Part shown: piece after piece, positions 16,778 through 22,838 of the stretch
Layout of the letters: the number at the start of each line of letters is the position of its first letter
Position numbering within the stretch: the stretch's first letter is position 1
Source: Candidatus Giovannonibacteria bacterium
GTDB lineage: Bacteria > Patescibacteriota > Minisyncoccia > JACPKW01 > UBA11713
NCBI GenBank assembly: GCA_016176285.1
Contig: JACOXM010000012.1
Span: 1-36,204, forward strand
Length of the DNA: 36,204 nucleotides
Direction of reading: 5' to 3'
Notes under the pieces: model-generated
Databases searched by the model: none
What the model was told of the DNA's origin: nothing
What the model saw: only the letters and a program-made list of their open reading frames with translations
Made by a program: the position numbers and the translations under genes

Positions 16778-17145
16778 TTAATCTAATTGCAAAGCTCGGC
16801 TGTGGATAACGCCGCAGCAGGCAATAGCTATTGCGTCCGACTCATCGTCCAGAAATTTTTCATTAAAATTATTCCCCGCACTTCCCCGATAATAAGCGCG
16901 GTTTTGGCATTATTCGAAAAGAAAATTTTTTCGATGCTTATAGCCTCCGGTTTTTCTTCTTTTATTAGTTTTTCAACGAAATCATGGATTTCCAAAAGCC
17001 GTTTGTGTTTCTTGTCGTTTTTATCAGTCCTTTTCACGCCAGAGAGAAGATATTTAAATTTATTCGAATCCCTTTCAACCAAAGACCAGCCGAGCCTCTC
17101 TATCCCGGGGTCGATCCCCAGAACTTTAATCGCTTGTTTCAGCAT
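16778..17145 (-). pseudogene. ruvC: Holliday junction resolvase RuvC, disrupted by an out-of-frame internal deletion
   Basis: In-frame part 16828..17145: LGIDPGIERLGWSLVE, ISIEKIFFSNNAKTALIIGEVRGIIL. A second frame continues as FLDDESDAIAIACCGVIHSRALQLD* (stop 16778). The segment normally between GVIL and DDxADA is absent. Confidence 0.8.
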
Positions 17146-18173: not shown

Positions 18174-18413
18174 TTAAATATTATTAGATGGAGTTTGGAA
18201 AGTTTGGACGGATCTGGCAAACAGCGACCAATCTATTTGGGAGAAAAATATTAATGATAATATCGCGAGAACGACAGAGGCGGAAATATATAAATAAATT
18301 ACTGCGTTAGAGCTTCTCGAAAAAGAGTAAATATGCAGGTGCCATAAAATTGCTCCGGAAAAAAACGCGTATGAAGCGAGAAATAATAAGAATATTATCC
18401 AGGCGATGGTCAT
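18174..18413 (-). CDS. Small integral membrane protein
   Basis: 79 aa with two or more hydrophobic helices; overlaps ruvB and sits 2 nt from the PH-domain gene. Confidence 0.6.
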
Positions 18414-19423
18414 GATAAAAATGCGCTTTGTCCGGAGAAGGAGTGTCCTAGGTGCTGATAAGCCCTCCCCGTGGCGACTCTTCCGCGAGGAGTTCTTTCA
18501 AGAAATCCCAACTGCATCAAATAAGGCTCGTAAACCTCTTCGATTGTTTCTTTTTCTTCCGAAGTGGCCGCCGCCAAAGTTTGAAGCCCGACGGGTCCGC
18601 CTCCAAATTTTGAAATAATTACGTTCAAGATCATCCGGTCTGTTCCCTCGAGCCCCAAAGGATCAATCTCAAGAAGGTCAAGCGCCCTTACTGCCAAGTC
18701 CTGGGTTAAGGATTGGGATTTTTCAACTTGGGCGAAGTCCCTGCACCTTTTTAAAAGCCTATTTGCAACACGCGGCGTGAAACGGGAGCGCTTAGCCACT
18801 TCTTTGACCGCGCCTTTCTCAATATTTATCCCGAGGATTTTTGCGGAGCGCTCAATAATTTTTTCGATTTCATTTTCGCTGTAAAAATCGAGCCTGAATG
18901 TGCCTCCGGAAAACCGGGAACGGAGGGGCGCGGAGAGAAGGGCTATTCTGGTGGTTGCGGCTATTAATGTGAAGGGGGGAAGTTCGAGTTGAATCGTTCT
19001 TGCGGATGGGCCTTTGCCGATAATTATATCAAGAGACCTCGATTCAAGCGCGGGATAAAGTATTTCTTCGATTAATTTATTAAGCCTGTGAACTTCATCA
19101 ATAAAAAGTATATCCCCAGGAGAAAGATTGGTGAGTATGGAGGCAAGGTCTCCAACTTTTTCAATCGCGGGGCCAGAGGTCACTTTTACCTGGGACCTCA
19201 ATTCTTTAGATATCAAATGGGCGAGGGTTGTTTTTCCAAGACCCGCCGGCCCGTAAAAAAGTAAATGCTCAACGGGTTCATTTCTTTCTTGGGCCGCCTG
19301 AATAAGGATTTTTAGGTTTTTTTTAACCATTTCCTGCCCGATATATTCTGCCCAACCCTTAGGCCTTAGGGTTTGGTCAAGGGAGCGGTCGTCTTGTGCA
19401 ATTTTTGGGTCTGTTATAGCCAC
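18410..19423 (-). CDS. ruvB: Holliday junction DNA helicase RuvB
   Basis: [55 protein letters not shown]. Confidence 0.97.
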
Positions 19424-19425
19424 TA

Positions 19426-19454
19426 TTGACTTTTTTTATAATATTTGATAAACT
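19426..19454 (+). promoter_or_regulatory. Possible sigma70-type promoter ahead of the ncRNA candidate
   Basis: TTGACT (19426-19431), 17-nt spacer, TAAACT (19449-19454). Confidence 0.3.
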
Positions 19455-19481
19455 AATTCAAATTTGCTAAAGCTAGATTTT

Positions 19482-19627
19482 GGCCTTGAGCCTCTAAGCG
19501 AACATGGAGATTTGCCTTTAGGAAAACCTGGTTGCCTGCTTGTCGGGAATTTACTGGTGTTTCTCCAATGAATTTCTCCGAACTTATACTACCCATAGTA
19601 TGAGAATCTGCCTAGAGGCTCGTGGCC
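19482..19627 (+). ncRNA. Structured intergenic RNA candidate, family not recognised
   Basis: Closing stem GGCCUUGAGCCUCUA/UAGAGGCUCGUGGCC; internal helix CAUGGAGA/UCUCCAAUG (one bulge); 9-bp hairpin CUUAUACUA-CCCA-UAGUAUGAG; no convincing ORF. Confidence 0.65.
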
Positions 19628-19632
19628 AGCAT

Positions 19633-21303
19633 CTATTCGCCTACTACTCTTTCTAACTCTGAAAGCGTCGTTATACCAGAGAGTAACTTTAATATTCCGT
19701 CCTGTTTCATCGTAAGCATTCCTTGTTCGAGGACTGCTTCTATCAGGGCGGCTTCGGAGGGCTCCGTCAGGATCATTTTTTCAATTTTATCGTCAATCAA
19801 AAATCCCTCGAAGACCCCGACCCTGCCCTTAAATCCTGTCCCTCCGCATTTATCACATCCCACCGGCTTAAAAAATTTAACTTTTTTTATGTCCGGGGCC
19901 TCAATATTTTTTGGTAATTTTTTAATTTCCGCTTCTATTTTATCTATCTCTTCTTTTGACGCGGCGCTTTCCTCTGTGCAGTTTTTGCAAAGTTTTCTTA
20001 TAAGCCTCTGCGCAAGCGCCATTTTTATGGCGGGAGCGATGATATTCGGCTTAACCCCCATATCTATCAAGCGGGGAATTGTCCCTACTGCGTCATTTGT
20101 GTGGAGGGTTGAAAATACCAAATGCCCCGTGAGGGCGGCATGCATGGCGGTTTCCGCGGTGTCGAAATCTCGGATTTCTCCAACCAATATGACGTTCGGG
20201 TCCTGCCTTAAAATTGCACGCAACCCATTAGAAAAGTCATAGCCTTTTTCTGGATCGATCTGTGTTTGGGTGACGCTCTGCAGGTGGTATTCAATCGGGT
20301 CCTCGATGGTTATGATTTCGATCCCCGGCGCGTTGATTTTTTTTATGAAAGCATAAAGCGTGGTAGTTTTGCCGGATCCCGTGGGGCCGGTCGTTAGGAG
20401 CATCCCGTTTGGCTTAGTCAGCACTTTTCTAATTTGCTCCATGAGATACGGATGTATTCCCAAATCTTCAAGCGCTAATGATATCGTTTTCGGGTGAAGT
20501 ATGCGGAGCGTAACCGCCTCGCCATAAGGTCCTGGGAGGGTTGCTGTTCTTATTTCAACATCGGCTTCGTCCGTTCTTATAGTGAATCTTCCGTCTTGCG
20601 CTTTGTCTTTAATGTTTAATTTTAGTTCCGAAAGGAGTTTAATCCTTGAGAGCAAAAGGCCGAAAATTTTCGGCGAGAACGGAGTTATCTCCTGCAAAAC
20701 GCCATCAAGCCTTAATCTCAGCTCGACATTTTTTTCTCCCGGCTCGATATGTATGTCGGAAGCTTCGAGCGTTAACGCCCCCGCTAAAATCATTTCCAAA
20801 ATTTCCGAAATTTTTCGCGATTCGCTTATAGTCCCTGCTTCGGCGAGGAGTGTTTTTAGGGCGCTGACACTTTTTGCTTTTTCCCCAAATTCTAGAATCC
20901 TTTGCTGGGAAATATCCACGACGGAAGCTTTTACCGCCTCGAATGCCGGGATTTCGGCATATCGGGAGAGCGCCTTCTCAAGGCTCTGTGAAGAGACTAG
21001 AAAAATTTCGAGTTCGTATTTTTTGGCCTTTAATTCCTCGATGACTTGCTTCGCCCTTAATTGTTCGGGATTATTTAGGGCGACGGAAATTTTTTTGCCT
21101 ACGGATTGGAAAACCACTATCCTGCCCTCCCTCGCGTCGCCTTCGGGAACAAGTTTTAAAGAATCCAAGTCTATTGTTATAGAGGACATGTCGAGGTAAG
21201 TAAGCGAAAGTTTTTGCGCCATTATCTGAGCAAGCTCCTCCGCTTCCTTGTGTCTTAATTCATCGAATTTGCTTTTCTGTTTTGCCTCATCAAATTTAGT
21301 CAT
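19633..21303 (-). CDS. pilB: GspE/PilB family type II/IV pilus assembly ATPase
   Basis: LLTTGPTGSGKTTTLYAFI, EDPIEYHL, GEIRDFDTAETAMHAALTGHLVFSTLHTNDA, zinc-type CKNC...CDKC. Confidence 0.93.
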   Translation of the reverse strand: MTKFDEAKQKSKFDELRHKEAEELAQIMAQKLSLTYLDMSSITIDLDSLKLVPEGDAREGRIVVFQSVGKKISVALNNPEQLRAKQVIEELKAKKYELEIFLVSSQSLEKALSRYAEIPAFEAVKASVVDISQQRILEFGEKAKSVSALKTLLAEAGTISESRKISEILEMILAGALTLEASDIHIEPGEKNVELRLRLDGVLQEITPFSPKIFGLLLSRIKLLSELKLNIKDKAQDGRFTIRTDEADVEIRTATLPGPYGEAVTLRILHPKTISLALEDLGIHPYLMEQIRKVLTKPNGMLLTTGPTGSGKTTTLYAFIKKINAPGIEIITIEDPIEYHLQSVTQTQIDPEKGYDFSNGLRAILRQDPNVILVGEIRDFDTAETAMHAALTGHLVFSTLHTNDAVGTIPRLIDMGVKPNIIAPAIKMALAQRLIRKLCKNCTEESAASKEEIDKIEAEIKKLPKNIEAPDIKKVKFFKPVGCDKCGGTGFKGRVGVFEGFLIDDKIEKMILTEPSEAALIEAVLEQGMLTMKQDGILKLLSGITTLSELERVVGE

Positions 21304-22295: not shown

Positions 22296-22838
22296 ATGCG
22301 GTATGGCAAATTGACTGGAAAAATTTTATCCTTATTGGCTAATGGATTACTCCTGGGCTATACTCATTCGAAAAATAATCAAAAGGAAATTTTGGAAGAG
22401 TGTGATAAGATCTGGCTTTCTATTGATAAAAAAGAATTATTTCAAGCTTTAAGAATTCTTAAGTTGAATGGATTTTTGGATGTGGTCGAGGATAACAAGG
22501 GAAATAAAAAAGCTATTTTAACTCCCAGGGGAAAGGAGCGGGGTATGTACTTTAATCTAGATAGCCTTTCAATAAAAAAACCTAAAAAATGGGATAAAAA
22601 ATGGAGAGTTGTCGTATTTGATATTCCAGAGGAGAGGAGGAAAATAAGAAATGCCTTGAGAACGAGATTAAAAAATTTGGGGTTCCATGAAATGCAAAGA
22701 AGTGTGTTTGTTTTTCCTTATGCTTGCGATGATGAGATAAATATACTCGTAAATGTGTATGGCCTTAAAGAATGTGTGCGTCTAGCTGAGGCAACATTTT
22801 TCTATGATCAGGATATTAGGAAAAGATTTAAAATATGA
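22296..22838 (+). CDS. PaaX-like transcriptional regulator with Cas2-like C-terminal domain
   Basis: N-terminal winged-helix-like region; KKWRVVVFDIPEERRKIRNALRTRLKNLGFHEMQRSVFVFPYACDDEINILVNVYGL pattern of PaaX/Cas2-like domains. Confidence 0.75.
   Translation: MRYGKLTGKILSLLANGLLLGYTHSKNNQKEILEECDKIWLSIDKKELFQALRILKLNGFLDVVEDNKGNKKAILTPRGKERGMYFNLDSLSIKKPKKWDKKWRVVVFDIPEERRKIRNALRTRLKNLGFHEMQRSVFVFPYACDDEINILVNVYGLKECVRLAEATFFYDQDIRKRFKI

Follow-up and report, generated by a model that had tools for sequence, protein, structure and literature searches.

A probable new family of stand-alone structured RNA encoded between ruvB and pilB in Paceibacteria

Genomic locus

The window, that is, the whole 36,204-nt stretch of Candidatus Giovannonibacteria DNA that we analyzed, contains a 146-nt block (positions 19482-19627) between the start of ruvB at 19423 and the stop of pilB at 19633, both genes being encoded on the minus strand. 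The ruvB product (18410-19423) has the Pfam domains RuvB_N, AAA_lid_4, and RuvB_C, and the product of pilB (19633-21303), a T4P assembly ATPase, has the domains T2SSE and MshEN. A covariance model assigned the interval 19477-19629 on the plus strand to a structured non-coding RNA, the true ends of which need RNA data. In this orientation, ruvB is divergent from the RNA promoter, whose -35 element is 2 nt away from the GTG start codon of ruvB (19421-19423, minus strand). By contrast, pilB and the RNA are convergent, and the pilB stop codon falls approximately 6 nt past the closing stem. Paceibacteria (Parcubacteria), the class to which we assign this RNA below, make up a very large and mostly uncultured bacterial branch, whose genomes are tiny and whose RNA genes are poorly charted. 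Elsewhere in the window, ruvC (16828-17145, minus strand) is apparently broken: its open reading frame stops after 105 aa, covering 88 of the 148 positions of the Pfam domain, and is followed in a different frame by a segment that resembles the C-terminal part of RuvC, with some of the middle absent. On the plus strand, positions 22296-22838 encode a protein with a PaaX central/Cas2-like domain.

Predicted fold and covariation

The minimum free energy of the 146-nt block is -53.5 kcal/mol (z = -5.14), lower than that of any of 200 dinucleotide shuffles (-35.3 +/- 3.5 kcal/mol), and the corresponding RNAs of two relatives also fold below their shuffles (z = -4.51 and -6.27). The outer stem pairs 19482-19496 with 19613-19627 over 15 positions, with one U.U mismatch and one U-G pair, and extends inward by approximately 3 bp to 19499/19610. 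The resulting closing stem P1 (covarying helix 1) has the 5' arm GGCCUUGAGCCUCUAAGC at 19482-19499 and the 3' arm GCCUAGAGGCUCGUGGCC at 19610-19627; across the family it measures approximately 20 bp, and its inner part reads UCUCUAGGCAA/UUGCCUAGAGA in many members; where it differs, both arms change together. The junction strand GAACAU (19500-19505) occupies a site at which an additional hairpin, P2, is present in most other families; this optional hairpin is absent in the genus of the window, so the junction is three-way there. The next element, P2b (covarying helix 2), pairs GGAGA (19506-19510) with UCUCC (19575-19579) and leads into P3 (19518-19569), the two forming a long arm whose GGA/UCC and UGG/CUGG (more fully, UGGY/RCUGG) segments are nearly invariant and whose tip varies. 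In the alignment of 69 sequences, the P3 pair at columns 102/207 is G-C in 68 sequences, and the pair at columns 112/195 is G-C in all 69. The tip of P3 in the window, CCUG-CUUGU-CGGG (19535-19547), is supported by the fold and is variable. Finally, the P4 hairpin CUUAUACUA-CCCA-UAGUAUGAG (19583-19604) comprises covarying helices 7 and 8, with 94% and 93% of cells paired among the 69 sequences, and its CCCA loop is conserved in many members. The RNA as a whole is thus modeled as a molecule of approximately 150-180 nt, in which the long closing stem P1 would surround a three- or four-way junction carrying the optional hairpin P2, the long arm P2b-P3, and the hairpin P4 with a CCCA-type loop.

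Two-sided changes were observed in 22 of the 52 pairs in an alignment of six sequences and in 47 of the 52 pairs with 69 sequences. In the larger alignment, 91.6% of cells were paired, compared to 69.4% in shuffles and 41-48% when pairing partners were slid by 1-3 columns, and two-sided cells numbered 849, compared to 233 +/- 19 in shuffles. The alignments were fitted to the model structure, which inflates these counts somewhat in favor of structure. The slide controls, together with pairs that appear outside the model, speak against an alignment artifact as the source of the covariation. Specifically, the top signals of APC-corrected mutual information, calculated for all column pairs, were the helices of the model, and the same calculation picked out extensions of P1 as well as P2 (signal at columns 32/65), neither of which is included in the model. 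RNAalifold applied to the 69-sequence alignment reproduced this fold; 44 of its 48 pairs are compensated. A pseudoknot involving the P4 loop gave no covariation signal in the mutual-information scan of all columns. Overall, the predicted fold is supported by overwhelming covariation.

The original prediction, which was made from the window alone, had described a block of approximately 146 nt enclosed by a 15-position stem with one mismatch and one G-U pair, the 9-bp hairpin with the CCCA loop now termed P4, and the weaker hairpin at 19535-19547, and all three are present with the pairs as described. Its inner pairing CAUGGAGA/UCUCCAAUG was placed in the wrong register: covariation joins the second UCUCC, at 19575-19579, to GGAG(A) at 19506-19510, and AGGA of the long arm (approximately 19520-19523) to the first UCC, at 19564-19566.

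Phylogenetic distribution and gene neighborhood

BLAST searches within the family identified two homologs with 74-76% identity that occupy the same genomic place and carry compensatory changes. A three-sequence model matched six of the seven genomes of the order, and no match to the RNA model was found in G001, a genome of the same family that is 91% complete. A six-sequence model applied with strict filters matched at least 89 of 392 class genomes. In a sample of the whole phylum, the 69-sequence model (R3) matched at least 28 of 34 genomes of the class, a total counted from the listing of the sample, compared to 1 of approximately 355 genomes of other classes. The identity of the class as Paceibacteria is inferred from the named matching records; scanning named genomes for an exact pattern recovered Giovannonibacteria, Tagabacteria, other Parcubacteria/Patescibacteria, and one record named only 'bacterium'. 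The sole match outside the class (L108, G516:C42) is on a small contig with the order pilB-RNA-ruvB in a genome assigned elsewhere, and it could reflect either contamination or an older origin. Nearly all searches returned one site per genome, most second hits being merely weak matches to the reverse strand at that site. A transposable element or repeat is ruled out by the single genomic copy and the orthologous position across families, and no plasmid relatives of the element were found.

Neighboring genes were tallied at 109 loci, and the RNA lies between ruvB and pilB in 99 of them, next to pilB only in six, and next to ruvB only in four. Every match fetched across the class, down to E = 0.07, adjoins pilB and/or ruvB; since the model holds no information on neighbors, this synteny is an independent check of the matches. 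The RNA is kept where ruvB is absent nearby (L058, L080, L122, and L126) and where pilB is absent nearby (L091, L094, L097, and L121). At most of the one-neighbor loci, different genes stand in place of the missing neighbor, such as those for ribosomal proteins at L080 (product names were read from the translations), and a few of these loci may be cut by contig ends. Retention of the RNA without one or the other neighbor therefore indicates its independence from both genes.

The near-constant synteny leaves room for a regulatory link to ruvB and pilB, and we considered whether a plus-strand RNA might mainly control these neighbors through antisense action, transcriptional interference, or service as a junction-shaped decoy for RuvAB. 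The overlap of the promoter and the RNA with the pilB-ruvB spacer on the opposite strand is, together with the synteny, in keeping with such control. However, antisense action requires no conserved multi-helix fold, and the RNA survives the loss of either neighbor. The decoy variant, which invokes mimicry of a Holliday junction, is weakened because the missing P2 leaves a three-way junction in the genus of the window. We regard neighbor control as the main role of the RNA as rather improbable.

Promoter, strand, and 3' end

The putative sigma-70-type promoter of the RNA (19426-19454, plus strand) consists of the -35 element TTGACT (19426-19431), a 17-nt spacer, and the -10 element TAAACT (19449-19454), with an extended -10 TG (19446-19447) closing the spacer; it is conserved in the relatives G002 and G003 and in most homologs. 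We scanned the 80 nt upstream of the RNA at 109 loci for matches to TTGACA-N16-18-TATAAT. At least 10 of 12 promoter positions matched on the RNA strand at 78 of the 109 loci (perfectly at 28), compared to two of 109 on the reverse strand and 2.9 loci predicted by mononucleotide shuffles, and 57 of the 78 positive loci have the extended -10 TG. The window promoter itself matches at only nine of 12 positions. Transcription from this strong housekeeping promoter (sigma-70, extended -10) would leave ruvB behind and approach pilB from its 3' end.

The model R3 scored 109.5 bits on the plus strand of the window compared to 25.2 bits on the minus strand. Read on the plus strand, the helices of the aligned homologs contain 477 G-U cells and 72 A-C cells, and an excess of G-U over A-C is expected only if the plus strand is the RNA strand. 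A T-rich stretch (at least six T in eight) was found within 25 nt 3' of the RNA at 53 of 109 loci, compared to 26 of 109 for the opposite transcript. In the window, neither an intrinsic terminator nor a T-rich stretch was found after the RNA. As a separate candidate, an intrinsic terminator of pilB on the minus strand was rejected, none being found in the window and no U-tract being present. The combined evidence supports, at the level of sequence alone, transcription of the RNA from its own plus-strand promoter, and it agrees with the original proposals that TTGACT-17-TAAACT is a promoter candidate and that the plus strand is favored.

These observations also weigh on the possibility that the element acts in cis on the minus strand, as an intercistronic structure, leader, or attenuator of a pilB-ruvB unit. 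The tandem arrangement of pilB and ruvB on that strand, with the element between them at 99 of 109 loci, would suit such a role, but the model score, the G-U excess, and the conserved promoter all favor the plus strand, the window has no U-tract in the minus direction, and the RNA persists without ruvB or pilB nearby. We consider a cis-acting element very improbable.

Comparison with known RNA families

Neither the window nor 22 homologous loci gave a credible match when compared with the 4227 families of Rfam 15; at both gathering and relaxed thresholds, only chance-level matches to unrelated families were obtained. In the absence of an Rfam match, the element looks like an unrecognized RNA family, as the original prediction of an unassigned structured RNA implied. 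Among the outcomes named there as refuting, a lack of conservation, a lack of covariation, and membership in a known family were looked for, and none of these three came true.

The further claim that the locus lacks the cores of tmRNA, SRP RNA, and RNase P RNA held in that no matches to those families were found at the locus. ARAGORN called no tmRNA in the window, no Rfam match to tmRNA was obtained, and no CCA end was seen. The RNase P RNA was found elsewhere in the genome (G000:C2:57797-58212), and the locus gave no RF00010 match. Among the seven family genomes, G004 (95% complete) is the only one without an RNase P RNA match. SRP RNA (RF00169) was detected neither in the family nor, at E <= 0.1, in 389 genomes of the phylum, so that an unrecognized SRP RNA is conceivable; the Paceibacteria RNA shares with the bacterial small SRP RNA the character of an abundant-type small structured RNA gene. 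On the other hand, it has no match to RF00169, and the domain IV loop motif is absent from its alignment. The Ffh M domain (PF02978), found in 14 of 14 control genomes, was found in none of the seven family genomes, which leaves an SRP RNA there without a known partner; these bacteria may have lost the SRP pathway or may carry it in a strongly altered form. We give hardly any credence to a diverged SRP RNA, RNase P RNA, or tmRNA of the lineage.

The element resembles the orphan bacterial structured RNA classes obtained by comparative genomics (PMC6429828, PMC8632094) in its intergenic position, conserved fold, covariation, and lack of a known function at discovery. It differs from them in lacking a credible counterpart among the Rfam 15 families, in its confinement, within the present searches, to a single class save one genome, and in its fixed ruvB-pilB position. 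We found no report of the element in literature on 6S, SRP, and structured RNA in CPR/Patescibacteria/Parcubacteria, and PMC8321541 and PMC10768705 contained nothing relevant to it.

Based on these results, we conclude that the locus is very probably the gene of a new stand-alone structured RNA family characteristic of the class Paceibacteria (Parcubacteria). Its predicted fold, strand, promoter, class-wide range, independence from neighbors, and, in nearly all searches, occurrence at one site per genome are all established by comparative sequence analysis alone. The newness lies in the RNA family, which is absent from Rfam; its biochemical job could prove to be of a known type.

Possible function

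The fold, promoter, single gene, class-wide retention, and neighbor independence point to a constitutive, trans-acting RNA that is probably protein-bound. This role is inferred, no transcript or partner having been shown, and P1, P3, and the P4 loop are the inferred contact surfaces. Among known functions, a 6S-like niche, in which the RNA would bind RNA polymerase, is by analogy the most plausible single guess, and it remains unlikely in absolute terms.

In its strictest form, this guess would identify the element as 6S (SsrS) RNA in a highly diverged form, which would bind RNA polymerase by mimicking a promoter. Both RNAs are of similar size, and are single-copy stand-alone genes with a strong constitutive housekeeping promoter; in each, a long closing stem leads to a junction and a terminal arm. 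Furthermore, the 32 genomes matched by RF00013 all belong to other classes of the phylum, so the niche looks vacant here. However, only 9% of those other genomes gave a 6S match, and the exclusive distribution is therefore not statistically compelling. No RF00013 match above the cut-off was found in the family genomes, and none was found in the tested homologous loci; conversely, R3 does not recognize the 6S loci of other classes, which lie in a different gene neighborhood. The hallmark of 6S RNA is a large conserved single-stranded bubble between the closing and terminal stems. The Paceibacteria RNA has no such open bubble, its junction being filled by P2, P2b, and P4, and it also differs from 6S RNA in that the sequence within P1, P3, and the P4 loop is strongly conserved. 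Descent from 6S RNA is thus unlikely in our assessment.

A new RNP function takes the remainder after the 6S-like and neighbor-control readings. We tentatively propose, with slightly less than even confidence, that a new housekeeping ribonucleoprotein is built around this near-universal, constitutive Paceibacteria RNA of no known family, and that the particle may have taken over a global function, such as control of RNA polymerase or the ribosome, in a lineage without detected canonical 6S and SRP. An RNA that is kept in most of these reduced genomes as one gene at one place with a near-consensus promoter is likely to be important to the cell. With the alignment and the covariance model, it can be annotated directly and tested in metatranscriptomes that are already available.

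Two observations concern the 6S RNAs of the other classes themselves. They are approximately 150-160 nt in length, and most score below the Rfam cut-off. In L141, L144, and L146, the 6S RNA adjoins an open reading frame resembling an M50 site-2 protease, as read from its HExxH-type translation.
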